Shown in pieces: positions 34,384 to 51,655 of a DNA stretch of 64,000 nucleotides. The first letter of the stretch is position 1; each line of letters starts with the position of its first letter. The position numbers were made by a program, and so were the translations under genes. Source of the stretch: Elusimicrobiota bacterium (GTDB lineage Bacteria > Elusimicrobiota > Elusimicrobia > F11); assembly GCA_022072025.1 (NCBI GenBank), contig JAJVIP010000002.1:39356-103355 (forward strand), read 5' to 3'. The notes beneath the pieces are model-generated. The model did not search any database, had not been told where the DNA came from, and saw only the letters and a list, made by a program, of their open reading frames with translations.

Positions 34384-34424
34384 GCCGAGAATCGGGATCG
34401 AACCGAGGACCTGCCGCTTACGAA
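34384..34424 (-). repeat. tRNA-Thr(CGT) 3'-half fragment, distal attachment-site remnant
   Basis: 41 bp matching the acceptor 3' strand, T-arm and anticodon 3' side of the intact tRNA-Thr (38675-38715) with two mismatches, ending at the anticodon-loop bases TTACGAA. The similarity with the copy at 36846 continues for about 40 bp beyond the tRNA match, to around 34465, where the intact gene differs. This is the pattern left at the far end of an element that integrated into a tRNA anticodon loop. Confidence 0.85.
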
Positions 34425-34507
34425 AACTTTGTGATGAAATTTGAGTTTTCCATGGTTCGTTTTGATTTTAAAATTCAAAACGATTTGCCAGGGAATTGCG
34501 TCTAATC

Positions 34508-34522
34508 CAAGATTGCAAGATT
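34508..34522. repeat. CAAGATT direct repeats, possible integrase arm-type sites (set 1)
   Basis: CAAGATTGCAAGATT, with further CAAGATT/CAAGA/TTGCAAGG-like copies down to about 34622. It begins 124 bp from the start of the tRNA fragment at 34384, exactly the distance seen in set 2. Confidence 0.55.
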
Positions 34523-34650
34523 CTCCCGCTATTCCTTCAAGACCCACGGGGAATCAATGCAAGATTCCTTATTCATACATTACAAGCCGACTTCAAGACT
34601 TCTTGCATTGGATTGCAAGGATATCGTGGGGATTTGGGGAATTAGGTGAT

Positions 34651-35127
34651 CTACACCAATCCGTCAATCTTTTCGACGGTTGATTGCAAATCCTTGCTTG
34701 CTAGATGTCCGTAGGCAAGGCGTCCTAGGTATATGTCTCTTGCAGCTCGAGCAATTGATTTGAAGTCTTTCATGCCCATCCACTTGATAAAAACTGGGAG
34801 GGATCCCATGGCCTCAGCAGACCATTCCTTCTTTGCCTCTCCTGAGATGATGAGAATGGGGATTTTTTTCAAAACCTTGTTTGCATATACCAACTGAACA
34901 ATCTCCAGTCCACTTACTCCAGGTAGATTCAGGTCAAGAACAAGCAAACTGGGAGTCGTAGCTTTCCGAAATACTTTTCTCTTAAGTAGATAATCAACGG
35001 CCGATGGGCCGTCGCTGATATGCTCAATGGACGCGTCTTCGATGGCCTGCGCCAAATATTTTTTCGTGATATGGGCATCAAGATGGTCATCTTCCACAAG
35101 TAAGATATGAAATTTTTTTGAATTCAT
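34651..35127 (-). CDS. Single-domain response regulator (Rcp1-like)
   Basis: 158 residues from ATG 35127, chosen for the GGGAGGG upstream; the frame is open to a TTG at 35205. Receiver marks: LLVEDDHLD (acidic pocket), phospho-acceptor Asp in LLVLDLNLPG, Ser in ILIISGEA, Lys in FIKWMG where the usual Pro after Lys is Trp. There is no output domain, as in Rcp1/CheY-like partners of soluble kinases. It follows the histidine kinase on the same strand after a 186-bp gap holding a CRP-like palindrome. It lies inside the segment bounded by two tRNA-Thr fragments. Confidence 0.86.
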   Translation of the reverse strand: MNSKKFHILLVEDDHLDAHITKKYLAQAIEDASIEHISDGPSAVDYLLKRKVFRKATTPSLLVLDLNLPGVSGLEIVQLVYANKVLKKIPILIISGEAKKEWSAEAMGSLPVFIKWMGMKDFKSIARAARDIYLGRLAYGHLASKDLQSTVEKIDGLV

Positions 35128-35239
35128 GTCCGCTACCCTCCCTAGAATGTTCCTCCTATTATGAGGCATTTCATCCAAAAAAGACAGAGTGTGAATATTT
35201 GTCAAAAATTAATTGCGTTGAAAAAACAATGGGATTTAA

Positions 35240-35255
35240 TGTGATCTAAATCACA
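35240..35255. promoter_or_regulatory. CRP/FNR-type operator palindrome
   Basis: TGTGATCTAAATCACA fits the CRP consensus TGTGA-N6-TCACA exactly, and one further matching base on each side extends the symmetry. It lies between the kinase stop (35314) and the response-regulator start (35127), about 113 bp upstream of that start, with a TTGACA on the same strand at 35200-35205 as a possible -35. No clear -10 follows. Confidence 0.6.
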
Positions 35256-35313
35256 TATGACGTAGGTTGGAAATACGGCAATGAAATCAGTTGACCAAGC
35301 GCCCGGTACGAAG

Positions 35314-36552
35314 TCAATTCAGAGAGTTTTTGGGGATGGCTTTCGGAAGAGTAAACATGAACGTGGCGCCCTTCGAGTAAGTCGACCGAACGGAAACCCT
35401 CCCACCGTATCTAGTGACAATTTTTTTCACTGTTGCTAATCCGATGCCCGTGTTATGGTTTTCGTTAGTGGATGGTGCTCGCGTGACAAATAAATCAAAA
35501 ATTCTTGCCTGGTCTTTCTTCTTGATTCCAGGCCCATTGTCTTTAACATAGTAGATTATATTTCTTCCTCTTTTTTTCGCTCCGATCTCTATGATGCCAT
35601 TGGATTTATCAACAAATTTCACCGCATTGCTTATCAGGTTTTGAAAAAGTTGATGAAATTTCACCTTTTCTCCCCATAATTCATGTGAATTAAGTCTGAC
35701 ATCAAAAGATAAATTCTTCTCGGGACGTTTAACCAGATCAATGATGTCTTTCACAATATCCGATACACGGACTGTTTCATTAAAATCTGTTGCTATATCC
35801 GCTCTAGCCAACTCCAATAGCTGGGAAATCAAATGTTCCAATTTATCGATTCGGTTAATAACGATCGAAAGAGTTTCTCGTTTATCCTTAGGCAACGGCT
35901 TTTGAATGTCATTAATTACCGATTGAAGAGCGGCTTGAATTGAATGGAGAGGAGATTTGAGGTCGTGGGCGACATGGTATGAGAAATCAGCCAACTCCTG
36001 GTTCGAATGATTCAGTTTTTCAAGGAGGATGGCCTGACGTTCGTTGGCTTCCTTTAAATCTGTGATATCAAACCGTACTGAAAAATATTCGACGGGTTTG
36101 CCTTCAGAACCGATGATTGGAAGAATCAAGCTGTAAACCCAATAGGGCTTTTCATCCTTATTCTTATTCTGAATTTCGCCCTTCCATGGATTCCCTTTCT
36201 TGATGGTATCCCACATAGTTCTGAAAAACTCTTTCGAATGATGACTGGAACGTATAATCGAATGGGGTTTACCCAGGAGTTCTGGGATACTATACCCGGA
36301 TACTTTTGCGAATTGTTTGTTTGCGTAAGTAATGACTCCGTGAGAGTCGGTTTTTGAAATAAGCGCAAAATTATCTAGTGCGGCCAACAGTTCTTGAAGT
36401 TGTCTAATGGGCGCATTAACACCCATTAATTTTAAACGGGGCGATGTGTCACCGTTCATGTTTTTTTCCTGCACGGTACGATGGGTTTTAGTTTGTTGTT
36501 TCATCTTAAGTCCATTGCCGTTTTTATTGTGATCCTTTTCAAAGATATGCAT
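35314..36552 (-). CDS. Soluble PAS-domain sensor histidine kinase
   Basis: 412 residues with no transmembrane helix. A PAS domain with its PAC segment spans about 55-175 (ISKTDSHGVITYANKQF, YSIPELLGKP). The dimerisation helix carries the phospho-His in SYHVAHDLKSPLHS, and the ATPase has N-box NLISNAVKF, G1 DNGPGI and G2 NTGIGLATVKKIV. It resembles phytochrome-type kinases that signal to Rcp1 regulators, one of which follows. AGAGGAG lies right before the ATG. It lies inside the tRNA-Thr-bounded segment. Confidence 0.9.
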   Translation of the reverse strand: MHIFEKDHNKNGNGLKMKQQTKTHRTVQEKNMNGDTSPRLKLMGVNAPIRQLQELLAALDNFALISKTDSHGVITYANKQFAKVSGYSIPELLGKPHSIIRSSHHSKEFFRTMWDTIKKGNPWKGEIQNKNKDEKPYWVYSLILPIIGSEGKPVEYFSVRFDITDLKEANERQAILLEKLNHSNQELADFSYHVAHDLKSPLHSIQAALQSVINDIQKPLPKDKRETLSIVINRIDKLEHLISQLLELARADIATDFNETVRVSDIVKDIIDLVKRPEKNLSFDVRLNSHELWGEKVKFHQLFQNLISNAVKFVDKSNGIIEIGAKKRGRNIIYYVKDNGPGIKKKDQARIFDLFVTRAPSTNENHNTGIGLATVKKIVTRYGGRVSVRSTYSKGATFMFTLPKAIPKNSLN

Positions 36553-36697
36553 GCTCCTCTACCTCAAAAGATAATCCTTCTCCAGCGAAAACCACATTAG
36601 ATTAACAACCAATTTAAGGCGGCGCATTCTGTAACACCGGAGTGGACCTGCCCGATTATGTTTTAATCCCTTTAGAATGTTTGCAGGTTAGATTACC

Positions 36698-36829
36698 TCA
36701 ACGGACATCGTCTAATGCATCGAAGTGAATAGCTTTTTCTGTCCATTCTTCGATGATTTTCATTGTATCATTAACTCGGACTTTCTCGAGTGCTGCTAGT
36801 TCTGTTGCTATGGTCGTGAATTTTTCCAT
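36698..36829 (-). other. Small open frame of 43 codons near the tRNA fragment
   Basis: ATG at 36829 to TGA at 36698, encoding an acidic helical peptide (begins MEKFTTIATELAALE, ends FDALDDVR). No Shine-Dalgarno sequence is visible. It lies 17 bp from the tRNA fragment at 36846, where an integration element's end genes would be, and could be the remnant of such a gene. Not recognised. Confidence 0.3.
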
Positions 36830-36845
36830 ACCGTTAAAAGTGTAT

Positions 36846-36886
36846 GCCGAGGATCGGGATCGAACCGACGACCTGCCGCTTACGAA
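36846..36886 (-). repeat. tRNA-Thr(CGT) 3'-half fragment, second attachment-site remnant
   Basis: 41 bp identical to 38675-38715 of the intact tRNA-Thr, from the acceptor 3' strand to the anticodon loop (TTACGAA), then diverging. The next ~40 bp match those following the fragment at 34384 with few changes (AACT-C/T-TGTGATGAAATTTGAG block). Perfect identity here versus two mismatches at 34384 suggests this insertion is the younger one. Confidence 0.88.
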
Positions 36887-36969
36887 AACTCTGTGATGAA
36901 ATTTGAGTTTTCCGTGTTTCGTATTGATATTAATACATACCTTTGATTTTTTGGAATTTTCATTTTTCC

Positions 36970-36984
36970 CAAGATTGCAAGATT
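36970..36984. repeat. CAAGATT direct repeats, possible integrase arm-type sites (set 2)
   Basis: CAAGATTGCAAGATT 124 bp from the start of the tRNA fragment at 36846, followed by looser AAGATT copies near 36991, 37014 and 37036. Sequence and spacing equal set 1. The stretch 36830-37113 holds no other gene. Confidence 0.55.
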
Positions 36985-37113
36985 AACCCAAGATTATTTC
37001 AAGATCAACGGTGAAAGATTACATCACCCAGTCAATAAGATTGCTTGGAAGAAAGCGTTTGACATATTAAACTTAAGCATCCGATCGATGTTACTCTCCT
37101 TCATGGAGGCTGC

Positions 37114-38631
37114 ATGAAATTAACCGCTCATTTGATATTGTTTTCTTGCCTGATTTCTTTTTCCGGACTCGTTTCACCTCCGCTTCAATCAGCAGAACCA
37201 GCGCGTGCCGCTGAACCCGATTTGCCCTCCGTTGTTTTGGCTCCTCCACGCCAATTCACCACCGTCACAGATCCAAAAAATTTCAAAATTGTTTCCGACG
37301 CGGGCACAAAAATCCAATCGATGATATTTCAATGTCCCAATCCCCAAGATCCATTCCTAAGTCAAATGCTTCGCGTCCTGAGACCGAATATAATGGTCAT
37401 CATTATGGTCACTGATTCCCAAACCGCAACATCGCTATGGCGTTACTTGAATCAAGAAAAACTGACGGATCTAAGGGAACGGGTTCGATTTGTGATCGCT
37501 GATCCTCCCCGCGTGTTAACGCGCTGGGGTCGCGATCCTTACTTGGTTCTCTACAATGAAAAATCCGATATGTATGCTCTGGTGGAAGGAATTCAACCCC
37601 AATCGCCGCGATACAACGGTCATATCGATCGTGCTGCGGTCGTTACTCTCCTGAATTCGGATATTGGCATGAAAAATCTTTCCAAAGGGAATTTCCAGCT
37701 GTTGTCTACCATGAATGTCGAGGGGGGGGCCATCACTTCAGACGACACATTTGTCTATATGGGAGGAGCCACGATAAATGGATCAATGGGTTGGAATGCT
37801 GGCACACCCACATTTTCGCAATCGGCAGTCGCGAACAGTTTCACTGAAATCATGGGGAAAAAAATTGCCGTAATGCCCAATCGGCGCAATCACAACGACC
37901 GTTACCACATGCCGGTGGGAAAAACCCGTTACGGCGAGAGAACCAGTCTTTTATCGGACCCGGTTAAAGCTTTACAGATCATCGCTTCATTAAGTCCCGG
38001 TGAGAAAAAAATCGCCATGGATCAAATCCTTGCCACAAGATCGCGGTGGTTGGATCAAAACGTCGTCATAAGTTCTGATGGAAAAAGAACCGTGACCGGG
38101 TCGAAACCGAAAATTACGCTGGCTCAATTAAAGGAATTCTTTGATGTGACGGACCAAAAAATCGAAAGGCTAAGCCGGTCCATGGAGGTCAAGTTATTGG
38201 ATGAAAGCGAAATTTTCTTAGAAAACCAGGGCATCCACGTTGTCCGGGTGCCGAACCTTCAAGCGGAGTACGTCATCGATCGAGAGAAGGGGCAGAGTTA
38301 CGAAGACGCGCCAAAATTGGTGTTTCCTTTAAGTTTGCCCTACGTCAACATTATCCAAGACAGCACCAGAACCGATGATATCGTGTTTATTCCTCGATTT
38401 AACATTCCCAAGCTTGATGATCATGTAAAAGCAATTTTCTCCGATTTGGATAAGTACACCGAAATTCACCAAATTTTGAGCGTTGATGAGGCCATTGATC
38501 GCGCGGGCCCTCGCTGCCGAGTGCAAACTATTGGTAAACCCGTTAAACCATTAACGATCGCCAAGCTTGGGAAAAATATGTTTAAAAAAATGAGAAAATC
38601 GGCCAAAACCGTCAAATCACGGCCTGTGTGA
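37114..38631 (+). CDS. Exported protein of probable guanidino-group-modifying (agmatine/peptidylarginine deiminase) fold
   Basis: 505 residues with a signal peptide (hydrophobic core about 5-24, cut near QSA). Motifs recall agmatine deiminases: RWGRDP with Asp141, VEGGAITSDD with Glu203, HNDRYHMPVG with His260 or His265, and a late cysteine in GPRCRVQT at 468 where these enzymes carry their nucleophile. Order and spacing fit the family, but overall similarity is remote and the protein is longer, with inserts between about 290 and 450. The likely chemistry is hydrolysis or transfer on an arginine or agmatine guanidine outside the cytoplasm. It is the only gene between the tRNA-Thr fragment at 36846 and the intact tRNA-Thr. 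Confidence 0.55.
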   Translation: MKLTAHLILFSCLISFSGLVSPPLQSAEPARAAEPDLPSVVLAPPRQFTTVTDPKNFKIVSDAGTKIQSMIFQCPNPQDPFLSQMLRVLRPNIMVIIMVTDSQTATSLWRYLNQEKLTDLRERVRFVIADPPRVLTRWGRDPYLVLYNEKSDMYALVEGIQPQSPRYNGHIDRAAVVTLLNSDIGMKNLSKGNFQLLSTMNVEGGAITSDDTFVYMGGATINGSMGWNAGTPTFSQSAVANSFTEIMGKKIAVMPNRRNHNDRYHMPVGKTRYGERTSLLSDPVKALQIIASLSPGEKKIAMDQILATRSRWLDQNVVISSDGKRTVTGSKPKITLAQLKEFFDVTDQKIERLSRSMEVKLLDESEIFLENQGIHVVRVPNLQAEYVIDREKGQSYEDAPKLVFPLSLPYVNIIQDSTRTDDIVFIPRFNIPKLDDHVKAIFSDLDKYTEIHQILSVDEAIDRAGPRCRVQTIGKPVKPLTIAKLGKNMFKKMRKSAKTVKSRPV

Positions 38632-38673
38632 TCAGCCTACCGTAGATGGGGGTTCCCTATAGACGAAGAATAT

Positions 38674-38746
38674 AGCCGAGGATCGGGATCGAACCGACGA
38701 CCTGCCGCTTACGAAGCGGCTGCTCTACCAGCTGAGCTACCTCGGC
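38674..38746 (-). tRNA. tRNA-Thr(CGT)
   Basis: Minus-strand cloverleaf: acceptor GCCGAGG/CCTCGGC, D-arm GCTC/GAGC, anticodon stem GCCGC/GCGGC around TTCGTAA (anticodon CGT), T-arm GTCGG-like/CCGAT around TTCGATC. The discriminator is T and CCA is not encoded. Its 3' half is duplicated at 36846 and 34384, its 5' half at 38913. Confidence 0.92.
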
Positions 38747-38912
38747 ATGTGAAAAAGTTGAAACTGCCTTTTCTGACTATCCCAACGTTTCCCTTAACGC
38801 TTGCTCACTTCAAAATCTGTTAATTAGCAATTCGCTGCAAAATCATGCGAAATTTTACGTTTTTTGCCGTCCGATAACCCTTGGGATTTAACCCTTTTAA
38901 AACCGCAACGTA

Positions 38913-38950
38913 TTACGAAGCGGCTGTTCCACCAGCAGAGCTACCTCGGC
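38913..38950 (-). pseudogene. tRNA-Thr 5'-half fragment
   Basis: 38 bp match the 5' half of tRNA-Thr(CGT) (anticodon loop, anticodon stem, D-arm, acceptor 5' strand) with about three mismatches. It starts exactly at the anticodon-loop TTACGAA where the 3'-half fragments end. It is the other side of a break at the same point, probably the displaced host half of an older event. The stretch 38747-38912 holds no gene I can see. Confidence 0.8.
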
Positions 38951-39573: not shown

Positions 39574-39693
39574 GAAATATGTTTTTGAGGAAAACTGAGA
39601 CCGACAGACTGACGGAAAAGAGGGGGGATCTTACAGAAAAGAATCCTGTCTCACAAATAAATTTACTTTTCTGTTGAATCTCATCCGGTTGCC

Positions 39694-40383
39694 ATGTACC
39701 TTTTTTCCATGTTGGTCAGAACCTCACTATTTATAAAGGGTTTTTGTTTGGCTCTCATGCTGATGGCTCTCTCATCTTTCAGCTTTGCTGCTGATATAGG
39801 TAGTTTATCCCGTGAACCTTTTGTCATTCTATCCCCTGCCATCAATGTGGGGTATAACCGACTGTTGGATGGCTATGATGGCTACAAGGACCTCGGAAAT
39901 GTTGGGTTCGATTTGTATTTCCATAACCCTCCCGAAAAATATTCGGACAATTCTATCTCTTATGATTGGAAGGACCGCTTTGCATTTCGACTGTCCCTTG
40001 ATTATTTTCCTTTGCAGGTTCCTGAGGGGCTGTATAACACAACCGAAGATATTTATGCCCTCAGCGGAGCGGTCGTTTATAAATTTATTGATCGAGATAA
40101 CCCTTTGCAAAAGTGGATCCCCTTTTTATCGTTGGGCGCTGGTGTATACCAGGACCGGGTGACCATTGATACTCCTGCGACCGGAGAAATAACCGGAAAA
40201 GAAGATCGCTTTGGACTTAATGCCTCTTTGGGGGCCATCGCCCCTGAAATTAAATTGATCATACCGGTAAAACTGATTCCTGAGATCCGTTATCACAGAA
40301 TTAAGGGTGTGAATGATTACGCCTCCAATCTCACCTTCCAATTGGGCGTTAGTTATTGGCCTCGAAGCAGGAAAACCAAATGA
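39694..40383 (+). CDS. Outer-membrane beta-barrel protein
   Basis: 229 residues. A signal peptide with hydrophobic core ALMLMALSSFSFA ends near residue 33, followed by alternating amphipathic strands (VILSPAINVGYNRL, RFAFRLSLDYFPL, WIPFLSLGAGVYQDR) and a terminal LTFQLGVSYW strand. It resembles small OmpA/OmpW-like barrels; no enzymatic motif is seen. The gene overlaps the VWA lipoprotein gene by ATGA, so the two are probably coexpressed. Confidence 0.68.
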   Translation: MYLFSMLVRTSLFIKGFCLALMLMALSSFSFAADIGSLSREPFVILSPAINVGYNRLLDGYDGYKDLGNVGFDLYFHNPPEKYSDNSISYDWKDRFAFRLSLDYFPLQVPEGLYNTTEDIYALSGAVVYKFIDRDNPLQKWIPFLSLGAGVYQDRVTIDTPATGEITGKEDRFGLNASLGAIAPEIKLIIPVKLIPEIRYHRIKGVNDYASNLTFQLGVSYWPRSRKTK

Positions 40384-41279
40384 GACGATTGATATTCGTG
40401 ACGGTTTCGTTTTGTTTCATCCTTTTCATCGGATGTGATCGAAAAAATAATCCACTTTTAAATTATCCTGGTTCCGGTGTTTCTTCTGTTTCGTTGTTTA
40501 TTCCGCAAATAGATACACAGCAAGCGAGCAAAGATTTAAATCGAATTTTCGTATATGTCGCCGACAATGGGGGGAGCCCGGTTACGAGTTTTCAGTTGGG
40601 AAATTTTTCGATTTTAGAGGGGGGAACTCCCGGGATTCCCTTTGAAGTGGGGAATGTGACTGATCCGCTTTATATTGTTTTGGCCATTGACCGAAGCGGC
40701 AGCATGGCAGGTTCCAATACCACCGCGGCCAATGCGGCTGCGATCGATTTGATCAATGCCACCGCCTCCTCTGATTATATGGCGCTTATTGAGTTCGCCT
40801 CTGAACCAAGCGTGACAGTCGACTTCACCACGAGCAAAGCCACCTTGATCAGCGCGGTCAATGCGGGGGTGGCTTCTGGAGCGACATCGCTTTACGATGC
40901 AACCACCAAAGCCGCGGATCTTTTGGCTGGAAAAAATGGCCGGGGCCTGTTGATTGTTTTAACTGACGGGGAGGACACCGCCAGCAGCGCTTCCCTTTCA
41001 GGAGCCGTTGAGGCTGTCAATAAAAAGGGATTGAGTGCCTACATGGTGGGTTTGGGAAGTGGGATCAGTTCGACCACGTTGGACGCCATCGCCACTCAGA
41101 CCGGCGGAATTTCAGCCACCTCGGCCGATGGAAGTGGTTTGAGTTCTATATTTTTATCCATTTTGAACCGGTTCAATAATTTGGTCTATATCAAATACCG
41201 GCGACATGCTGACGGAAGGATCGCCGTCTACCTCAATTACGGAAGTCTCACCGCCAACGCCAGCAAGGCGTTGGATTAG
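40380..41279 (+). CDS. Von Willebrand factor A domain lipoprotein
   Basis: 299 residues from ATG 40380, which overlaps the preceding stop; the frame is open eight codons earlier. The lipobox is FILFIGC. The VWA metal-ion-dependent adhesion site is complete: DRSGSMAG, the Thr/Ser of GATSLYDA, and LTDGEDT. After the VWA domain (about 100-275) the tail carries LVYIKYRRH. It is probably anchored at an outer-membrane face, binding a protein partner through the metal site. The barrel encoded upstream is a possible partner. Confidence 0.85.
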   Translation: MRRLIFVTVSFCFILFIGCDRKNNPLLNYPGSGVSSVSLFIPQIDTQQASKDLNRIFVYVADNGGSPVTSFQLGNFSILEGGTPGIPFEVGNVTDPLYIVLAIDRSGSMAGSNTTAANAAAIDLINATASSDYMALIEFASEPSVTVDFTTSKATLISAVNAGVASGATSLYDATTKAADLLAGKNGRGLLIVLTDGEDTASSASLSGAVEAVNKKGLSAYMVGLGSGISSTTLDAIATQTGGISATSADGSGLSSIFLSILNRFNNLVYIKYRRHADGRIAVYLNYGSLTANASKALD

Positions 41280-41315
41280 TCCCTCCTCATTCCCAAAAGT
41301 TCTCTCACCGGTTAA

Positions 41316-41522
41316 TCCAAAAAAAATGCGGAACACACGCATCTAGATCATTTCATTTACGTGGCTGAAGCGGGAACTCTCAAGATATCCAAGCCTGACG
41401 GTACGAGTTCAGATCCGACGGTCAAGGTGGGAGATGTCTTGTGGATCCCACCCGAATCGCACGCTGGAAATATAGGCGGCACAACTGTCCGATCGTCATC
41501 ATGTTCGGTTCATCCTAAATAA
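41316..41522 (+). pseudogene. Cupin-domain fragment
   Basis: 69 codons open directly after an in-frame TAA and without a start codon, reading like the C-terminal half of a small cupin (HLDHFIYVAEAGTLKI, VKVGDVLWIPPESHAGNIG). The N-terminal metal-binding strand is missing. It is a remnant left between the VWA gene and the terminator. Confidence 0.6.
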
Positions 41523-41528
41523 TAAAGT

Positions 41529-41561
41529 CGCCGCCCTTCTCTATAGCGGAGAAGGGCGGCG
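41529..41561. terminator. Bidirectional hairpin terminator
   Basis: A perfect 13-bp stem (CGCCGCCCTTCTC at 41529-41541 with its complement at 41549-41561) around a 7-nt loop. On the minus strand it is followed by ACTTTATTATTT, as expected for the end of the giant-protein/PorV operon. It can also stop transcription from the VWA side. Confidence 0.85.
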
Positions 41562-41589
41562 GTTTCAGAGAGATATCTTACTGGCGGCT

Positions 41590-42564
41590 TTAATTCGAAC
41601 CCTGATTCTTTAGTGAGGAGAAACGGTAGCCAATTGAGATCCGATGCGTGTCTCCCAAATCCCCGAATGGCATAAAGGCGTAATCGATGCCGATGTTCAT
41701 CAGGTGGAAGCCTGCGCCCGCTGCGAAACCGCTTCCGGCGCCCTCGTCGCGGCCGATTTGGTATCCCGTACGGAGCGAAAACATCTCCAGGGGCATCCAT
41801 TCCAAACCAGGTTGAACCGAGGCAATACCATCGTGGAGCAGCAGATCGCTGTCGATGATCGCGTTCAGCCGGCCCATTCTTTCAAAGTTCATGCGGTACG
41901 CGAGGCCCGGTTTGAAATTGAGGGGAAGCGGGTCGCCTTCATCGGCAAATTTGAGTTCTCCTCCCAAGTTCAAGAGTGACATTGACAAAGACAACCCGCC
42001 TTCTTCGCGAAGGTCCCACACGAGGCCAAGATCGGTCGCGCCGGTTGCGGCGGATTCGGTCTCTAGATTCGAACTGATGAACTTTAATGCGGCGCCATAA
42101 TGAAGCCGTCCCGCCCCCATGGACCGTTTGTTGCCCCAGCCGAGCGACACCGCCATGTCCCGTGTATCGAACTCGCCCAGATCTGGTCGGTCGGCGTCAC
42201 CAGCTGTCGCAGAACGTTTTTCGATGTCCTGCACCCCGAACAAGGTGACACCCAGGCCGAACGATCCATGGTCTCTACTGGGATGCGCATACCCAATGAA
42301 CTGTTGCGCGGTGTCCTTGAAGTAAGCATTGTAGGACACCTGTACTTCCGGCCGCTCGACGCGAGCCAGGCCGGCCGGGTTGTAATAGATCGCTGTGGCG
42401 TCATCCACGATGGGAGCCAGAGCTCCCGCCATCCCAGGCCCGCGCGCGCCCGCGCCAATTCGTAAGAACTGGCCGCCGCTGGTTCCCTTTCCAGCGGCTA
42501 TTAAACCGCTTGAACAAATCATCACCACCATCAATGCCGCCGTCATACGAAAGAACCGTTTCAT
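41590..42564 (-). CDS. PorV/PorQ-family outer-membrane beta-barrel protein (copy 2)
   Basis: 324 residues from ATG 42564 (GAGGAGGGAGTC just upstream); the frame is open 27 codons earlier. A signal peptide ends near LIAAG, then come GTSGGQFLRIGAG and DATAIYYNPAGLA, and the protein ends AFMPFGDLGDTHRISIGYRF before a short tail. Both landmarks align with copy 1 at 10280-11365. It lies 82 bp after a giant C-terminal-signal protein on the same strand, reproducing the order seen at the left of the window. The role as secretion shuttle or barrel is inferred from type IX PorV. Confidence 0.88.
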   Translation of the reverse strand: MKRFFRMTAALMVVMICSSGLIAAGKGTSGGQFLRIGAGARGPGMAGALAPIVDDATAIYYNPAGLARVERPEVQVSYNAYFKDTAQQFIGYAHPSRDHGSFGLGVTLFGVQDIEKRSATAGDADRPDLGEFDTRDMAVSLGWGNKRSMGAGRLHYGAALKFISSNLETESAATGATDLGLVWDLREEGGLSLSMSLLNLGGELKFADEGDPLPLNFKPGLAYRMNFERMGRLNAIIDSDLLLHDGIASVQPGLEWMPLEMFSLRTGYQIGRDEGAGSGFAAGAGFHLMNIGIDYAFMPFGDLGDTHRISIGYRFSSLKNQGSN

Positions 42565-42646
42565 GACTCCCTCCTCACATTTTTCAATTGATTTATTCAT
42601 GGTCTTCATGGTGATTGTCTCGTTAACGTTTCTCATGGCACGCACC

Positions 42647-45600
42647 TCACTTCACCAAGACCATTTTGATTGGCTCTTTCTTGGGCGCCCCGGGGGCGTC
42701 GACCGCGGCAAAATAAACGCCACTGGCGACATCGTCGCCGGAGGTGTTTTTGCCGTCCCAATGAATGTAGTTGTAGTAGCCGGCTCGCGCGGTTTCCTTA
42801 AATTCGCGAACCATATCGCCAGCGACATTGTAGATGCGAATGGTGATGTTCTTGTCGCCGCTGCCAGTCGGCGAAACCACGATATAGGTTCCGCGGATTG
42901 ATGTGCCCACACCGGAGGTGCCGGAGCGCAAGGTCACTGTTTTATCCTTTAAGTTAAACGGATTCGGGAAGTTGTATTGATGATAAGAGGTCGCCGCCAC
43001 CGTTCCGGTGGATTGCGCCAGCCCAATCACAAACGAGGCAGAGCCGGAGGCCGCCGCGCGCGGATTTGTTCGAAATCCATCTCGCGTTCGCAGCGCGTTC
43101 ATGCCTCCTTTCACGCTGGCGGACCGCATACCGCCCACACTGTTATTGCTGATCGATACCTGGGAGAACACCGTATTGTTGAGCGTGACGTCCACCGCCA
43201 CGGTCCCATTCAACGGGTCCAGTGTTAGTGTGCTGTCCACTTTTTCCAACTCTCCTGTGGAGGAATTATATTGATAGAGAGCCAGGTCCTTCGCATCGAT
43301 GCCCTCGTCGAGCGTTGAGGTGTCGATCGGCATCACCAGCGGAACATCGCGCCCGGTGAAGTTCACGTCGTTGATATCAACCTTAACGATATCCCCGACG
43401 GTTGTAGTGTCCGTCGTGGTGATGTCCAAGTTGGCGGGATCTTGCAGTTCGAAATCAGCTGAAGGAATTTCCGAAGAGGAACCGGCAATCAGCGCCCCCG
43501 GTTCCAACTCAAACCCGGCGCCATTAAAACCGACGTAGTTGGCTTGAACGCCATCGTCGCCCACCGTTTCATCGCCAAGCATGGCCTGGTCCATCGCTTT
43601 CTTGGCAGCTTCTTTACCGCTGGCGAAGTCGATCGTCCTTGTCACCGGTTCGCTGCCGTCCGCCGGATTCGCGACGATTTTTAATGTGTAAGGCACGCCC
43701 GCCGTCAATACGCTTTTCGCAAGTTCGGCCACCAAACTGCCATCCGGAAGGTCGGTGAAACTGTTCGATATATCCGTTGTGTTACTGGAGTCCGCCGTCG
43801 GATAATACGTAACGGTCCCATCCGAGAAGTTATTCGGATTAAGGATTTTGATTTTAAATGTGGTGTCGAGAAAGTCGATCGCCACATCAATGGTGAGCGG
43901 TTTTTGTTTGAAAACAAAATCGACGCCGGTCATCGCGGCGCCATTTGAGGTTTTTGTTGTCGACTCCACCTGGCGTCCGGGTGCCTTGGCGCTAATTTTG
44001 TAGGTGTGGCCGTTGACGAGACCTTCCAAGAGATATGTTCCGTCTGACTGTGTGGTCGCCTCAATCAACGCCAGCGGCTTCGATGTGTCCTGCGCGTTAA
44101 CGGTGTCGTCATAGGCGGTCACTTTGGCTCCTTCAACTGGTTTTTTCACGAGCCCCATTTCGGTCGCCGACAACTCCAAGATTGTGCCTGCGATGGAACC
44201 GGGACCAGCGTTCAACGCGAAATTGACGGTGTCGGTTTCCGCATCGCCAATGACGGTTTTTTGAGCATCGGGCGAATAGGAGGGAGCTGTTGCGGTTATT
44301 TTATAGCGACCGATAGGCAGACCTTCAAACGCATAGGCGCCACTGGCGTTAGCGGTCACCGTTTTTTTAATTCCTTTGGTTTTTAAGAGGACCGAAGCAC
44401 TCTTGATCGGCGTCCCGTTCGAATCGGTGACCGTACCCGAGATAGTTCCGCCTTTACCGGCGACGTTGTCCCAGTTAATGTCCCACGTCAATGAGCTGCC
44501 GTTCGCGCCAGTGGTGACCCTTTTTGAAACAGGCGGATAATTCGGCGTTGTCCCAATCAGCGTGCAGTCCTTGTTCGGTGGCACGCCGCGGATTTCATAT
44601 TGCCACGTGAGTCCGTCGACCACATTCACAAACCCGTTGTAGTCATTGTTCAAGATGGCGGTATCAAGCTGCGCACCCGCCGCGCCTTCGATCGCCGCCG
44701 GCGGTGGCGTTACCAAGCCCATCGCGACCATGCTGTTGTTACAGACCACAGAGATTTGCGGGATATACTTGATGAAGTTGTTGAAATCACCGCCGAGACT
44801 GGTGAAGTCATTTTCACGCATCATATTTTCGGCGATCACAGTGCCTTTGACGGTCGTTCCCGCCTGCGGAGCATCCCCAGCGTAAGTGACACGGACCGGT
44901 TTGACGGAGGACCCTTGATGCATCACCGTGGGGTCCGTTGCCTTACTGCTGGAGACCTCGACATTTTCCTTGGTTCCAAGGATTGTGAGATAAGGATAGG
45001 TCGCGTACGGGCCTTCCATGTTGCCGGTGCGGTAAAAGATGAAATCATAGGCATCTCCGGCCGCCATATATTTTCCGCAATATCCGCCCGACCATCCAGG
45101 ACCGCAGGGGCCGTTGCCGGCAGGAACATTGGTGAAGCGGGCTTCTTCGTCGCTATGATCGGTGAGGACCATTGTCGCGAAATTTCCGTCAAGAGGTGTT
45201 CCTGATTTGACGCGGATGATTTCGTATGTTTCTCCGGTCGGGAACCCTCCGCTGATGTCGGTTTGAAGCGTTGGATAATTGCTGGTGTCCCAAATCGGGA
45301 GCACAAAGGCCCCTTTGATAAAAGACACGTCCTTTTCAATCGTCGTATTCGCGATAACACGCGCTTTTACTCCTTCCGCCGCGTAATCCGCTCCTCCCCC
45401 ATGGACTTGAGGGCGGATGGTAACCTCTCCTGGTAACACGCCGCCGACCGTGTATTTCCCATCTTGTCCCACCTGTGCATGACCCCAAGAGCTTTGACCA
45501 CTCACATTCACGCTCGCGTGCACGTAGCCGCCATTGCCATCATTGCCGGGAATGAGAACAGATCCGTCCGGCTTGCGAACGTACCCGGTGACAATGCCGG

Positions 45601-47500
45601 CTTTCGCGAAGGTGAAGTCGCGTTGGACTTCGGTCACACCGTCTTTAAACTGAATCTGGTTCTGTCCTCCACCCGCCTGAACCACGCCCCAATATTTGCT
45701 GAAGACCTGAATGTGATAGCTGGCCGGTTCGGAATTTTTCGTTCGGGGAACAAAGGTTTCGTAGGTGTATTGGTTGCTTCCGCTCCCATTGACGCTCGCA
45801 AAATTTCCGGCGCAGCCGGAATTGTCGCAGGGACCGTATAGAATCACCGTTATTGGATCCGCGGAGAGATCCACGGTTTCCGGGAATTTCATGGTGCCGT
45901 AAACGCGGCCATCGCCGTTATTGCCCGTTTGAACGGTGAGAGTGATATTGGGAATGGAATTCACTGTTGTCACAACACCATTGATTTCCGTACCTGTCAT
46001 GTCAAATACCTGGACGGTGTTGTTGGCATTCACTGTTATGCGGCGATCATCGGCACTGCCGGTTATTTGGCTGGTGCAGCCGCGCAATCCGGGGCTCCAA
46101 TTATAAAGTCCGTCAGGGCCGGCGTTAAACATGGTTCCTTGTTGGCTGAACGGCGTCCAAACTTGCACCATATAATTACCCGCGCTCAGTTGACTAAGAA
46201 CGACCGTCCCGTCAACGGCTTGAGCGTTTTTCTGCGTATACCCAGGGTTCGCGACCGTCGCGTCGGCGCCGTTGCATGTCAGCGCTGATCCATCAACTTG
46301 GAACGGTTGCCCATCGGGCCAAATATTCACATGTGCTCCTGGAATAAGCGTACCGTTTTGATTTTTTACATTGACTTTGAGTGCGCCCGTTCCGGCGGGG
46401 GCGGCTGTCAGTAAAACCACGATATTTTTGGCGTTGCCGGAGGAGATGTCACCCGCCGTGAGTTCAAAATCATTGGTGTCCAAGTTGCCGTTCGTTCGCG
46501 CGGTGTCTGATTCGTATCCGCTATAACAAGTGGAATCTTGGCGGCACCCTCCGGACACGCGTAGGTAATATTTCCGCGCTTCCAGGCCGCGCAACTCAAA
46601 ACGTCCGTTCTGATCGGTATGGGTACCTTGTCGGTCAAATACGGCGCCGTTATCTTCTCGGATCATCAAACTCACCCAGACATTCGGCACCGTTTTGCTG
46701 GAATCAACGCTATCGCGCACAACTCCGCGCACCGTGCCGCCGGTGCCGCCCGCTTCCGCGAGAACCCGGTTCTGTTCATCGTTGCTTTTATCTCCGGAGT
46801 TGGCGGTGAAGTCCGGCGGAAGGCCTTGTGAAATATCGATCGTAATAGTGGCGTTGCCGCCCGAAGACACCGAGGTCGTCAAAATTTTCCCATAACCCTG
46901 TCCTTGACCATTGTTCGCGGAGGGGTCAAACACGCCGACGTCGTAAGTGTTCGCGGCTGCGGTTGGAATATTGTTGAAAATAATGTCACAAGTTCCTCCG
47001 CCATTGGCCAGACAGGAACCAAAGGCGATGTCCTGAGTTGTTCCTTTTTTTCGGACTGATCCAAATACCAATCGGGTCGCGGTAGCGTTCTGGACGGTGG
47101 CCGTGATTTGACCCCGACCGCTAAAGGTGCCGTCCAATGTAACAGTGGGGGAATCGGATGTGTTTCCGGCCACATGCGGATGCGTTGGACTAAAAAGCTG
47201 GTTGCGTCCTGTCGGGCCGGCACCGTGCTTCTCGGCTAAAATTTCATATTCCTCATTATCCACCAAGGCGAGAGTCACGTTCCCATCGTTGTCCGTTGTT
47301 CCGATTCGACTGTGTTCGCCATCGGGGCCTCTCTCTCCGAAGTTGACCGCGTAAACGGTCGCATTCACAACACCGGCGCCGTTAGCGTCTCTAACGCGGA
47401 TTGTCACGTTCGCGGCACTAAGCGGCAGATGAAAGGCGCTGATGGAGACCGCTATAATCGCAAATAATCTTTTTAACCGAGTGATAATGGAGCTAATCAT
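42647..47500 (-). CDS. Giant secreted carboxypeptidase-regulatory-domain protein with C-terminal sorting-like domain
   Basis: 1,617 residues from ATG 47500, chosen for AGGAGGGG upstream and a signal peptide right after it (LFAIIAVSISAFHLPLSAA); the frame is open 44 codons earlier. Repeated carboxypeptidase-regulatory-like beta modules fill most of it (for example SGTVTDSNGTPIKSASVLLKT in shortened form, YAFEGLPIGRYKITA), with cysteine pairs in several loops. The last ~100 residues (NFPNPFNLKDKTVTLR ... IRIYNVAGDMV ... IHWDGKNTSGDDVASGVY ... IKMVLVK) parallel the end of the giant protein at 3-10283. It is probably a surface or extracellular structural protein. The gene is noticeably richer in G and C than its flanks. 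Confidence 0.87.
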   Translation of the reverse strand: MISSIITRLKRLFAIIAVSISAFHLPLSAANVTIRVRDANGAGVVNATVYAVNFGERGPDGEHSRIGTTDNDGNVTLALVDNEEYEILAEKHGAGPTGRNQLFSPTHPHVAGNTSDSPTVTLDGTFSGRGQITATVQNATATRLVFGSVRKKGTTQDIAFGSCLANGGGTCDIIFNNIPTAAANTYDVGVFDPSANNGQGQGYGKILTTSVSSGGNATITIDISQGLPPDFTANSGDKSNDEQNRVLAEAGGTGGTVRGVVRDSVDSSKTVPNVWVSLMIREDNGAVFDRQGTHTDQNGRFELRGLEARKYYLRVSGGCRQDSTCYSGYESDTARTNGNLDTNDFELTAGDISSGNAKNIVVLLTAAPAGTGALKVNVKNQNGTLIPGAHVNIWPDGQPFQVDGSALTCNGADATVANPGYTQKNAQAVDGTVVLSQLSAGNYMVQVWTPFSQQGTMFNAGPDGLYNWSPGLRGCTSQITGSADDRRITVNANNTVQVFDMTGTEINGVVTTVNSIPNITLTVQTGNNGDGRVYGTMKFPETVDLSADPITVILYGPCDNSGCAGNFASVNGSGSNQYTYETFVPRTKNSEPASYHIQVFSKYWGVVQAGGGQNQIQFKDGVTEVQRDFTFAKAGIVTGYVRKPDGSVLIPGNDGNGGYVHASVNVSGQSSWGHAQVGQDGKYTVGGVLPGEVTIRPQVHGGGADYAAEGVKARVIANTTIEKDVSFIKGAFVLPIWDTSNYPTLQTDISGGFPTGETYEIIRVKSGTPLDGNFATMVLTDHSDEEARFTNVPAGNGPCGPGWSGGYCGKYMAAGDAYDFIFYRTGNMEGPYATYPYLTILGTKENVEVSSSKATDPTVMHQGSSVKPVRVTYAGDAPQAGTTVKGTVIAENMMRENDFTSLGGDFNNFIKYIPQISVVCNNSMVAMGLVTPPPAAIEGAAGAQLDTAILNNDYNGFVNVVDGLTWQYEIRGVPPNKDCTLIGTTPNYPPVSKRVTTGANGSSLTWDINWDNVAGKGGTISGTVTDSNGTPIKSASVLLKTKGIKKTVTANASGAYAFEGLPIGRYKITATAPSYSPDAQKTVIGDAETDTVNFALNAGPGSIAGTILELSATEMGLVKKPVEGAKVTAYDDTVNAQDTSKPLALIEATTQSDGTYLLEGLVNGHTYKISAKAPGRQVESTTKTSNGAAMTGVDFVFKQKPLTIDVAIDFLDTTFKIKILNPNNFSDGTVTYYPTADSSNTTDISNSFTDLPDGSLVAELAKSVLTAGVPYTLKIVANPADGSEPVTRTIDFASGKEAAKKAMDQAMLGDETVGDDGVQANYVGFNGAGFELEPGALIAGSSSEIPSADFELQDPANLDITTTDTTTVGDIVKVDINDVNFTGRDVPLVMPIDTSTLDEGIDAKDLALYQYNSSTGELEKVDSTLTLDPLNGTVAVDVTLNNTVFSQVSISNNSVGGMRSASVKGGMNALRTRDGFRTNPRAAASGSASFVIGLAQSTGTVAATSYHQYNFPNPFNLKDKTVTLRSGTSGVGTSIRGTYIVVSPTGSGDKNITIRIYNVAGDMVREFKETARAGYYNYIHWDGKNTSGDDVASGVYFAAVDAPGAPKKEPIKMVLVK

Positions 47501-47797
47501 GGAACCCCTCCTGCTTAATTGGTTTGGTGAACGAAACAATGGCTGCAGGATAGAGGTTGTCTGTGACATCAAGGTGACAGCAAGCGGCAAAAATATGTGA
47601 CAAAAATCAGGTCTGAGTTGGGGCCATTTCACATCATTTCTCGGAAAACGGTTCGTGTTTTGGAGGTAAAGTGGCGTCCAGTTTCGATGGTTGAATTTGA
47701 TGGAGGGGTTGGGGGGATAGTGTCGCGACTATATTCCCGTTTACTTGTCGGACATGTGGGGTACTTGTCGGTTACTTGGGGGGGCTTGGGGAGGCGG
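47501..47797. other. Intergenic stretch upstream of the giant-protein operon
   Basis: About 300 bp with no gene I can support. It must hold the promoter of the minus-strand operon. A G-rich segment near 47700-47800 contains repeated TACTTGTCGG and runs of G, but no clear -10/-35 pair. Confidence 0.4.
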
Positions 47798-48838
47798 CTA
47801 TCCGAGGAAATGCTTTTTCATGGCCCGTCGGGCGGTGTCAATCATGGGCAATCGCTTGGCTTCGGAGATTGGGGTACCCAACGCTTTAGCCAATGGCGCC
47901 AGGGTCGCGGCAAACGTCCCCTTTTTCACCAAGATCGATGACGGCCTCATTTGATTCTTCTCCATTGCATTGAGGAGTCCGTCGGCCATAACTTTGTGAG
48001 GTTCTCCAAATTCCTGGGACACATTGGAGCCCAGGATAAAACCAGACGCTTGGTCGGCGACAAGAAAGAGAAGAGGAATAATGGGCCGCTCGCCACCGTT
48101 GATCACGGCTTTCAAGGTCGAAATATCGGCTTCCCATGCTCCACCATATGGTTTTGTTTGTTGAATAATGTGCCTGATGCGCTCTTGATCGATGGGCAGA
48201 GGCCTGGCTGGAAGCGGTCGATGGATAGGTGGAGTCGTCCAAGTCAGTTTTGGCTGCGCTTTCGAAATATCTCCATTGATGTTCTCTGGGATTTCGTAAG
48301 TCGGGATTTGCTCGGGCGGCATGGGGAGGGAAATTTTTCCCTTATCGATCCGTCCGATAAAGTCCAAGCCGCACACAAGGGCCAGTGTTAAAAGCAAAGC
48401 TTCATTTTCATCCAGATACCAGAACGGTTCAAAGGGCCTTCGACTTCGAAATTGTGGCCAAACTGGAGATCTCAGCTTTGCCCAGCCAAGATCGCCGATG
48501 ACCTTGCGGTCAAAATTATCCAGCTCCTTCTTTTGAACGAACTCCAACGTGATCTGATTTTGCCGGGCGATGTAGCCGTCCACGTCGGGCTTCGATCCGC
48601 TCTCGGCGATCCATCGGTAAGACGCATACCCTTCCTCGCCTCGAAAGACCAAAAGCCCAAAGGAAATTCTTTCCTGGCCGATGGTGCAGGCATAGAGAGT
48701 TTCATCGCTGAGCGGACTCCGCACAGCGAACAGATCTTGATCGGAAAGAACGTCCCACGGACGCTGTTGCGCGTAGGCCAGCGCGGCGTCGTAAAGACTT
48801 CTCCAAGTTTCTAAATCAACGTGTGGTGGTTTCGCCAT
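47798..48838 (-). CDS. Uncharacterised protein, resembling DUF7309/DUF6930-type proteins
   Basis: 346 residues, no signal peptide or membrane helix. The N-terminal half (LETWRSLYDAALAYAQQRPWDVLSDQDLFAV, shortened) has the look of proteins annotated with DUF7309-like domains: a Trp-rich helix followed by a beta sheet with GQERISFGLLVFRGEEGY. The C-terminal half (about 235-345) carries VADQASGFILGS and a helix that may belong to DUF6930. I recall these families only by pattern; function is unknown. No Shine-Dalgarno sequence is clear. It stands alone between the giant-protein operon and the YhcG gene. Confidence 0.6.
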   Translation of the reverse strand: MAKPPHVDLETWRSLYDAALAYAQQRPWDVLSDQDLFAVRSPLSDETLYACTIGQERISFGLLVFRGEEGYASYRWIAESGSKPDVDGYIARQNQITLEFVQKKELDNFDRKVIGDLGWAKLRSPVWPQFRSRRPFEPFWYLDENEALLLTLALVCGLDFIGRIDKGKISLPMPPEQIPTYEIPENINGDISKAQPKLTWTTPPIHRPLPARPLPIDQERIRHIIQQTKPYGGAWEADISTLKAVINGGERPIIPLLFLVADQASGFILGSNVSQEFGEPHKVMADGLLNAMEKNQMRPSSILVKKGTFAATLAPLAKALGTPISEAKRLPMIDTARRAMKKHFLG

Positions 48839-48899
48839 AATCCCGGTTGGTCATTCAAATCGGTACGCAGTGCGTTCCAAATTGACGGAAATTGGAGTG

Positions 48900-50063
48900 T
48901 CATGTTCGTTTGCGTCGAGACTTTTGTTTGGATTGTGTGAATTCTTTCGCTCGCGATTCAATCAGCGCTCGCTCGCGTTCGAGTTCTCGACTCAGTTCTT
49001 TCTCTGTTGGAAGCTGTGGTAAGTATTTGGCCGCAAACAGTCGGCGGTTTTCCGCCAGCACGGAATATTTTGCAACCGCTTCATTTTTTTGGGAGCAGAG
49101 AATCAGCCCAATGGTTGGATTGTCGCCTGATGGTTTTGCGTGGGCATCGAACATCCGCACGTAGGAATCCATTTGGCCGATGTCTTGATGCGTGAGCTTA
49201 CCGACCTTGAGGTCGATTAGGACGAAACAACGGAGCATGTAATTGTAGAAAACGAGATCAACGTAAAAATCTTCGTTCTCGAAGCGCATGCGTTTTTGCC
49301 GAGCGACGAAGGAAAACCCTTTGCCAAGTTCGAGCAAAAATGACCCCAGATTGTTGATAATGGCTTGTTCCACTTTTGATTCACGAAGGGCAGGGTAATC
49401 CTTAAGATCAAGGAAATCGAGCACATAGGGATCGCGAATAAACCGTTCCGGCTCTATTGCGGCCAGCTTCTCTTTTGCTTCTTTGCGCACAGGTACTTTT
49501 TTACGGCTCGAGAGCAATCGCTCATAGTAAAGAACCGATATTTGCCGATCCAACTGACGGCTCGACCATCTCTGATTGGCCGCTTCCTTCATGTACCATT
49601 CCCGAGCCGTTGGGTTTTCCACCTGCATCAGTAAACGATAGTGGCTCCAACCCAATTCATCACAAACCATGTGACGAATTGTCCCCTGTGAAGATTTGAG
49701 ACGCGGTGCGTCTCGTTTTCCGGTGGTCAATTCGAGACGCGCTGTGTCTCGAATCTCAAACATGCGGTAGAACTGCCGCATTTTCCGGAGGTTGGTCACA
49801 TCAAAACCCCGGCCGAACTCATCTGAGAGTCGACGAGACAATTCCTCAAGTACCGTCTGCCCATATGCGGCGCGGCTCTTGCCGCCTTGTTCATGCTCTA
49901 AGATCAATCTCCCTACTTGCCAATAGGCCTGCACCATGGTGGTGTTGATTGCGTGGTATGTAGCAGATCGCGCGTTCTCCAATACGGAGCGAATATTTTG
50001 ATAGAGAGCATCGGTCTGCCGGGAAAGCGCGTGCGTTTTATGTTGTCTGCTATTTTTCTTCAT
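48900..50063 (-). CDS. YhcG/DUF1016-type protein with PD-(D/E)XK nuclease domain
   Basis: 387 residues. The N-terminal DUF1016 helical domain is about 15-180 (YWQVGRLILEHEQGG, GFDVTNLRKMRQFY). A PD-(D/E)XK nuclease-like domain follows (about 225-360), with the metal-binding Asp in DFYVDLVFYN and the DLK of CFVLIDLKVG. The C-terminus is basic. The family is common in genomic islands and defence-associated regions, but its cellular role is not established. It overlaps the HTH gene by ATGA, so both are made from one transcript. Confidence 0.86.
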   Translation of the reverse strand: MKKNSRQHKTHALSRQTDALYQNIRSVLENARSATYHAINTTMVQAYWQVGRLILEHEQGGKSRAAYGQTVLEELSRRLSDEFGRGFDVTNLRKMRQFYRMFEIRDTARLELTTGKRDAPRLKSSQGTIRHMVCDELGWSHYRLLMQVENPTAREWYMKEAANQRWSSRQLDRQISVLYYERLLSSRKKVPVRKEAKEKLAAIEPERFIRDPYVLDFLDLKDYPALRESKVEQAIINNLGSFLLELGKGFSFVARQKRMRFENEDFYVDLVFYNYMLRCFVLIDLKVGKLTHQDIGQMDSYVRMFDAHAKPSGDNPTIGLILCSQKNEAVAKYSVLAENRRLFAAKYLPQLPTEKELSRELERERALIESRAKEFTQSKQKSRRKRT

Positions 50064-50272
50064 TTTCGATTTTCACTTCTTTCGTGTTTTGTGCCCTTGA
50101 GTGTCCGGACATGGGCTTTGGTGAACAACCACGACGCTCCGCCGACTTTCATCCAGGGTTTCAGTTTCCCGTTGTTGAGCCAGTTGTAGAGGGTTTGCCT
50201 TGTGATGTTGAGGATGCGGCAGACCTGAGGGGTGGTCAGCACATCAGATGGGTTCGGTGACTTCGATTTCAT
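50060..50272 (-). CDS. Small helix-turn-helix (excisionase/MerR-like) DNA-binding protein
   Basis: 70 residues: LTTPQVCRILNITRQTLYNWLNNGKLKPWMKVGG in part gives a winged HTH_17-type motif, as in excisionases and regulators, followed by a basic tail. It is directly upstream of the YhcG gene and likely regulates it or acts with it. Excision activity is possible given the recombinase remnant across the intergenic gap, but that recombinase is dead. Confidence 0.8.
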   Translation of the reverse strand: MKSKSPNPSDVLTTPQVCRILNITRQTLYNWLNNGKLKPWMKVGGASWLFTKAHVRTLKGTKHERSENRK

Positions 50273-50380
50273 GACGAAGCCATCAAACTAATTTTTGACA
50301 GCACCGTCCAAATCTAAATTTGATATGGAAAGCTCCTTGCCATTCTTGTTCACGATCAGTCAGTAAGCTCTCTTATGCCA

Positions 50381-51289
50381 ATACCGAGTGGGTTCAAAAA
50401 ACGGCCCGATAATCCGTGCCAGTTTGTGGGAGGATTAAAGACCCCGCGCATTCTTCGCCGCCGGGTCTATCTTGGATTCGTCGCCAACAAACGAACCGGT
50501 CAAGAATTTCCGGGCCTGCATCAGCCAATCGTCTCAGCACGGGTGTTCGATAAGGTTTAGAAGAATTTGGATGCCCACCGAAAACGTGAGGAGGCGATGC
50601 TTTATTCAGCGAACAAGCACGGTTTCCGGCTGAAAGGATTTATCCGCTGTGGCGTGTGCAATGGCGCCATCGTCGGCTTTGTTCAGCCGAAGAAAGGCAA
50701 GGAGTACCGATATTATCGGTGCATCGGCAAAGTGAACGGTATTCCGACGCCCTGCCCGATCAAGTGCATCGGCGCCGACAAGATTGAAGAATTCGTCATC
50801 GAGAAATTGGCTTCGCTGGGCAGCGACCGAACTCTTCTGGAAAAGGTCGTTCAGAAAGTTGAGAAAAAATCGAAGTCGCAGATTCGGCCGTTATCCCAGG
50901 AGCGGCGGAACATTGAAGAGCGAATCAAATCGACCAACCGCGAAATCCAAAATCTTTTGAACCTAGTAAAGGCGGGCGGCAAGTCGCAACAAGCTGTGGA
51001 GGAGATCAAGCGGTTGGAGAATTCAAAGCGTGAGATGGAAGCCAAGGCCATTGAGATTGATGCCCGGATAGCTCAACGGAAGCGCGCGGTCTACGACGTG
51101 GACGCCATTCGAGGCGCGCTTCACCGCTTTGCGAGGTTCATCTACAGGATTCCGATGCAGTTGCAAATTTATGCGCTTGGGATTTTGATTAAGCGGGTGA
51201 CCATAACCCGCAATACGATCGAAGTCGAGTTGAATGAAGTAGCCATAGAGACGCTTCAAAAATGCTTTGTTCGGAAAGCCAACCCAGAG
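50381..51289 (+). pseudogene. Large serine recombinase remnant
   Basis: One frame carries the recombinase domain tail (RRRVYLGFVANKRTGQEF, LHQPIVSARVFDKV), then a TAG at 50558-50560, then the zinc-ribbon (RCGVCNGAIVG ... CIGKVNG ... CPIKC) and the coiled-coil C-terminal region. The catalytic resolvase domain with its serine is missing, so the gene is 5'-truncated as well as interrupted. The frame stays open to 51385, but the last part reads through the opposite-strand GIY-YIG gene and is probably not recombinase. It marks a former integrative element here. Confidence 0.82.
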
Positions 51290-51492: not shown

Positions 51493-51527
51493 GGACGTTC
51501 TCCTCTGGAGGGGTGCTTGGTAGATTT

Positions 51528-51556
51528 GGTCCCGCTTCGCCTGTGGCTACGCGGGA
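51528..51556. repeat. Hairpin-forming inverted repeat
   Basis: GTCCCGC and GCGGGAC flank a short spacer with TTCGCCTGTGGCTAC. It lies between the GIY-YIG gene (upstream side) and tRNA-Asp and is of unknown use. Confidence 0.4.
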
Positions 51557-51618
51557 CGGTCTTCGCTTTTAATTATGCCGCTTCGGTTAGGATTGGTTGA
51601 CCGGCTCGCCGGGCGTAG

Positions 51619-51650: not shown

Positions 51651-51655
51651 AAGAC

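Follow-up and report, generated by a model that had tools for sequence, protein, structure and literature searches.

In silico analysis of a 64,000-nucleotide stretch of an Elusimicrobiota genome (assembly GCA_022072025.1, contig JAJVIP010000002.1, positions 39,356 to 103,355 of the forward strand; hereafter the window) points to two small segments that appear to have entered the anticodon loop of a tRNA-Thr(CGT) gene by successive insertions. As far as the sequence can tell, site-specific insertion itself is close to certain. The segments are probably non-autonomous, tRNA-anchored cassettes, moved without an integrase of their own by a tyrosine recombinase acting in trans. An earlier reading of the same DNA (the original prediction) had proposed two successive insertions into this loop, with the newest next to the gene, and four features agree with it: shared arms beyond the tRNA halves, a better preserved inner half, different cargo in the two segments and an empty site in a relative.

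The intact tRNA-Thr(CGT) gene, the presumed rebuilt target, is located at 38674-38746 on the minus strand, where it is recognised by ARAGORN, Rfam and the tRNA list of the genome; it is the sole CGT gene among the 75 tRNA genes found. Two displaced 3' halves of this gene, on the same strand, were identified by sequence comparison. The putatively younger half (36846-36886) is identical to the intact gene at 41 of 41 positions (BLAST E value 1e-15), and the older one (34384-34424) carries two mismatches (1.6e-13). Both end exactly with TTACGAA, which is the complete 7-nt anticodon loop (38709-38715, minus strand; TTCGTAA on the tRNA strand) and the predicted crossover core, assigned from the sequence and from break statistics over six genomes. 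The original prediction had given the same positions, identities and end point. The anticodon stem, GCCGC/GCGGC, flanks the loop as inverted repeats and would supply inverted core sites for a tyrosine recombinase.

The two segments also share the DNA that follows the core. A continuous alignment of 132 nt with 73% identity (E value 5e-17) opens at the first base past the core in both of them, the arm of segment 1 (36887-37015, plus strand) being colinear with that of segment 2 (34425-34553, plus strand). This sharing had been noticed before and proved real, but its length had been put at only about 40 bp. In segment 1 the sequence directly after TTACGAA is AACTCTGTGATG. At an equal offset of 83 nt from the core both arms contain CAAGATTGCAAGATT, with a third CAAGATT beyond it, and the three CAAGATT direct repeats (36970-36995 in segment 1, 34508-34566 in segment 2, both on the plus strand) are putative arm-type recombinase sites. 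Counts of the heptamer in the window (15 occurrences, 14.8 expected) give no enrichment; the evidence lies in its equal offset in both arms. A 7-bp crossover, inverted core sites and direct-repeat arms are the layout of a tyrosine-recombinase attachment site, predicted here from sequence only. The search for further copies of this end sequence, suggested together with the original prediction, placed the arm in these two positions alone: it has no copy elsewhere in this genome, none in 234 further genomes of the class and no match among viral contigs. A search of genome contigs gave two matches, both judged unrelated on inspection. In a test for attC sites, no GTTRRRY/RYYYAAC pair was found flanking the three main cores, and near 38913 only unrelated single motifs occur.

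A third half copy had been overlooked in the original prediction. It is a displaced 5' half (38913-38950, minus strand), matching by sequence comparison at 35 of 38 positions; it lies upstream of the intact gene at a distance of about 200 bp and is broken at TTACGAA, with which it starts. This half reads as the trace of one more insertion, the third, with the opposite polarity, whose relic would be the approximately 0.2 kb between the rebuilt and the displaced 5' halves (38716-38912, strand not assigned). A single breakpoint is common to the three independent half copies.

Measured from core to core, segment 1 (36887-38708) is 1.83 kb and segment 2 (34425-36879) is 2.46 kb in length, in agreement with the small cargo-only segments of about 1.8 and 2.5 kb described earlier; their G+C contents of 0.45 and 0.41 both lie below that of the window (0.48). 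Protein functions are given here as family matches or as readings of the sequence. Segment 2 encodes, on the minus strand, a PAS-HisKA-HATPase sensor kinase of 412 residues (35314-36552) and a response regulator receiver protein of 184 residues (34651-35205), and family matches thereby bear out the kinase and regulator pair of the original prediction. An open reading frame of 43 residues (36698-36829, minus strand) beside the younger displaced half may be due to chance. The cargo of segment 1 is a 505-residue protein (37114-38631, plus strand) that had been called exported and enzyme-like. It has a putative signal peptide, and no family was found for it: the protein has no match in Pfam, NCBIfam or the PDB, no relative in a search of genome contigs and none in the 234 other genomes of the class, and a single-sequence fold prediction was unusable (predicted local distance difference test score, pLDDT, of 36). 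Neither segment holds an integrase or an integrase fragment, in line with the reported lack of a recombinase, and no relaxase or phage family was matched among their main reading frames.

An uninterrupted form of the locus is present in genome G001, which belongs to the same family but to another genus (assembly contamination 14%). The locus is syntenic, with an M48 peptidase gene on one side and tRNA-Phe, tRNA-Asp and the following genes on the other. The tRNA-Thr(CGT) gene of G001 (L127) is single and uninterrupted, without a half copy and without any of the segment cargo, so that a syntenic relative gives no sign of the cargo being old core genes, an outcome that would have spoken against insertion. 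The genes nearest to tRNA-Thr also differ between the two genomes, and G001 is for this reason an empty site in a variable neighbourhood and not a perfect pre-insertion sequence. As a separate observation on this region, about 12 kb (39574-51654 of the window) separates tRNA-Phe from tRNA-Asp, which are 114 bp apart in G001; the interval includes a VWA protein and a secreted-looking protein of 1661 residues.

Similar units recur at other tRNA genes. The survey covered most tRNA neighbourhoods in this genome (G000) and in G002, G006, G007 and G017, and a part of those in G001, that is, six genomes with partial contigs whose assemblies are probably mostly metagenomic. In four of the six, an intact tRNA gene and a displaced half enclose small units, mostly of 0.3-3.2 kb: at tRNA-Leu(TAA), Ser(TGA) and Ser(GGA) in this genome, in addition to the window; at Ser(TGA) and Glu(CTC) in G001; at Thr(TGT), Gly(GCC), Ser(CGA) and Thr(CGT) in G007, with Leu(CAA) as a weaker case; and at Thr(GGT), Met and Phe in G006, with Ser(GCT) as a weaker case. 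The 5' halves are the commoner kind among these units. Nineteen fragments extend to one end of the tRNA and are more than 150 bp away from the gene. In 15 of these the break falls between -1 and +4 nt relative to the anticodon-loop edge, and in nine of the 15 it coincides with the edge; uniformly distributed breaks would give this with P of about 3e-13. Only one of the six fragments closer than 150 bp breaks at the loop, as ordinary slippage would give. The array-like stacking suggested by the original prediction is likewise seen at tRNA-Thr(TGT) of G007, with at least three stacked units, one gene pair of which resembles BrnT/BrnA by reading only, and it agrees with the differing cargo of sister species described below.

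The arms of these units were compared over 200 nt past the core in 19 units, with random segments of the same loci as the control. Twelve arm pairs were aligned at E <= 0.05, against 0.5 pairs for random segments, and the offsets were usually equal or nearly so. Among these pairs are Ser(TGA) of this genome with its counterpart in G001 and, across families, Ser(TGA) of G001 matched to Ser(CGA) of G007; arms are also common to different tRNAs within one genome, namely Thr(GGT) and Met in G006, and Thr(TGT) and Thr(CGT) in G007. The cargo behind paired arms comprises a short-chain dehydrogenase, an EamA-like protein with a methyltransferase-like frame, a ParE toxin, SLFN_AlbA_2 with TPR, a PIN domain and an aspartyl protease, while other units carry Fic/Doc, AbiEi/AbiEii and an addiction-module antidote; toxin-antitoxin genes are abundant. 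One G006 arm, searched across the class, was found in two members of its family, G015 and G035. Two other arms had no match among viral contigs. A comparison of sister species was made for G006 and G015 at tRNA-Thr(GGT), the species of the window having no close relative in the set. Their flanks are 91-96% identical and the arm is the same, but the cargo differs: a 479-residue AAA/DUF4143-like protein (by reading) in G015 versus SLFN_AlbA_2 and TPR in G006. In G015 the displaced half has been lost through a small deletion and the arm is kept.

Outside the segments, this genome has 20 tyrosine-recombinase matches, and within 1.5 kb of them no tRNA gene was found except at one truncated piece next to tRNA-Ser(GGA). 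That locus (L066, G000:C33:1-20000, positions 4420-14869) contains two stacked 5' halves with units of 7.3 and 3.1 kb and common TGGACACC arms; the content includes an exosortase-like/VWA gene cluster, a DUF1016 nuclease and two C-terminal integrase pieces. Contig G000:C10 encodes five full-length tyrosine recombinases of two alternating types (at 19.6, 42.2, 106.6, 124.3 and 172.9 kb), none of them near a tRNA gene. In the other surveyed genomes, eight integrase genes are located directly upstream of tRNA 5' ends and on the same strand as the tRNA (G001:C82; G002:C1; G006:C2, C22; G007:C20, C25, C60; G017:C1), and several of their reading frames run into the tRNA. It is plausible, from this arrangement, that they belong to autonomous elements of the 5'-half kind and are candidate helpers. 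This geometry is rare in published island surveys.

In the proposed mechanism, a circular cassette would carry a tRNA-Thr 3' half, the 7-bp anticodon loop as the crossover and, on its arm, the CAAGATT direct repeats. The cassette site would be joined to the loop of the intact gene by a tyrosine recombinase belonging to those that target tRNA anticodon loops; the tRNA gene would then be restored, with its 5' half from the resident copy and its 3' half from the cassette, and the former 3' half would be displaced together with the cassette arm. Because the rebuilt gene is again a target, cassettes would stack with the newest nearest to the gene, and segment 2, with the kinase and the regulator, would have entered before segment 1, with the 505-residue protein. 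We infer the circular intermediate, the involvement of a tyrosine recombinase, its action in trans and the order of events from this arrangement. The most likely suppliers of the recombinase would be autonomous elements that target tRNAs and either reside elsewhere or pass through.

The main rival to cassettes moved in trans is the loss of the integrase after insertion: autonomous islands would have entered with their own integrase in cis, which was later deleted while the cargo and the attachment ends were kept. Two tRNA-Ser(GGA) units of this genome retain only C-terminal integrase pieces beside the attachment end, and some of the integrase-free state, at least, therefore stems from decay; the relatives, as described above, hold apparently autonomous elements whose integrase abuts a tRNA. 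Nevertheless, decay is a rather unlikely explanation. It would require repeated and clean loss of the integrase only, at many tRNAs and with retention of the arms, but about a dozen tiny units in four genomes have open cargo frames and both ends without any trace of an integrase, and segment 1 leaves just 43 bp between its cargo gene and the tRNA. Movement in trans has other points against it besides the tRNA-Ser(GGA) remnants. The intact tyrosine recombinases of this genome adjoin no tRNA or tRNA half in the stretches read; no integrase could be tied to any arm, the far ends of the integrase-bearing elements lying beyond the sequence read; no conservation is apparent at the right ends of the units, to the extent that these were seen; and G002 and G017, two of the six genomes, are without a convincing unit.

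An exchange of cargo by homologous recombination between conserved flanks, following one ancient insertion, would have usable homology in G006 and G015, which share both flanks and the arm. It is improbable, as it would leave unexplained both why two or three units, each with its own half tRNA, are stacked and why arms are common to Thr(GGT) and Met in G006 and to Thr(TGT) and Thr(CGT) in G007. A further process, the copying of tRNA pieces by ordinary tandem duplication or slippage with no site-specific recombination, does occur in these genomes: the tRNA-Arg(ACG) copy of G001, rejected as a unit, is a plain duplication that includes the neighbouring deaminase-like gene, and the off-loop breaks of most fragments nearest to the genes are of the kind it would leave. 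As the origin of the units it is hardly credible, given the loop breakpoint of the more distant fragments. The original prediction had named plain duplication of the tRNA as an outcome that would overturn it, and this process is disfavoured because it is unable to produce conserved arms past the break beside different cargo.

Other candidates were rejected as well. The tRNA-like matches on contigs C33 and C17, taken for tRNA-Thr halves, are actually tRNA-Ala copies with palindromes in the anticodon arm. The 6.1-kb segment at tRNA-Met of this genome is not of the same kind, its break being at nt 15 beside a hairpin repeat; this integrase-free segment (L069, G000:C2:225000-244000, positions 4097-10249) extends from tRNA-Met to a 60-nt copy of its 3' part, with CCGATCAGNAATCCGATCA repeats inside both ends and beyond the copy, followed by AbiEii/AbiEi-like genes. 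Short GC-rich hairpins such as CCGCC..GGCGG are a frequent interruption of displaced tRNA pieces (L066, 15418-15476; L070, G000:C17, 10138-10174; L069, 10165-10190; L149, G007, 9600-11400), as if a REP-like repeat favoured tRNA pseudogenes. Two further observations concern tRNA genes of this genome. About 26 of them, several low-scoring, lie within 13 kb (L071, G000:C3:50000-69000, positions 2840-15444), duplicate tRNAs found elsewhere and are reminiscent of a phage-like tRNA array. A small GIY-YIG-like gene is duplicated directly behind tRNA-Ala 3' ends (L004, G000:C33, positions 1217-1790), with one copy behind the intact tRNA-Ala and one behind a damaged copy.

Among known systems, the tRNA islands collected by Islander consist of an intact gene and a displaced fragment, with an integrase required inside; the anticodon loop is among the main crossover sub-sites (2083 of 3919 islands), 5' fragments occur in 159 of 3919, and tandem arrays need one integrase per member (PMC4383910). 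The segments of the window likewise lie between an intact tRNA and an equally oriented displaced fragment and are missing from the syntenic locus of G001. In contrast to Islander islands, they have no tyrosine integrase gene, and 5' halves are commoner among the units described here. Integrase-free units are left out of Islander by design, because an integrase gene is demanded inside the island. Additive flexible genomic islands, a concept from Alteromonas (PMC5217437), are represented in Methylopumilus by fGI-2, where recurring 20-bp repeats of the tRNA-Lys end precede islands of 330 bp to 42 kb (PMC10872708). Recurring tRNA-end repeats also separate the cargo units at the tRNA-Thr of the window; the differences are the break at the anticodon loop, the resolved and conserved direct-repeat arms, the single operon per unit and the tracing of same-arm, different-cargo units between genera. 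Tycheposons, in the account quoted by PMC10872708, are tRNA-bounded, cargo-carrying elements of 4-200 kb with a tyrosine recombinase; set against that account, the segments of the window are also tRNA-bounded cargo elements but measure only 1.8 and 2.5 kb and do not have the tyrosine recombinase as hallmark gene. CALINs are integrase-free integron arrays (reviewed in PMC11389934). Integron cassettes and CALINs resemble the present units as small, stacked, integrase-free entities rich in toxin-antitoxin genes and thought to be moved in trans, whereas here the boundary is not of the attC type, the site consists of a tRNA half and arms, insertion would rebuild a tRNA gene, and different tRNAs are used. 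A literature search, with most subscription papers outside its reach, found no paper on integrase-free stacked anticodon-loop units with shared arms.

These results suggest that tRNA genes of this organism and of several relatives are docking sites for swappable cassettes. For the class as a whole it is possible, at slightly less than even odds, that anticodon loops are platforms for a shared pool of integrase-free cassettes, mostly toxin-antitoxin or single-operon, which are mobilised in trans by integrases that target tRNAs, stack in an integron-like manner and bring the same arm to different tRNAs. Surveys of tRNA islands have required an internal integrase and have thereby filtered out miniature integrase-free units. 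Units with the same arm and different cargo allow cassettes to be paired with helper integrases and also permit a direct test of movement in trans. If the units are mobile, tRNA genes would be open docking sites for very small cargo and would provide, beside integrons, a second route to arrays of toxin-antitoxin and other accessory genes.

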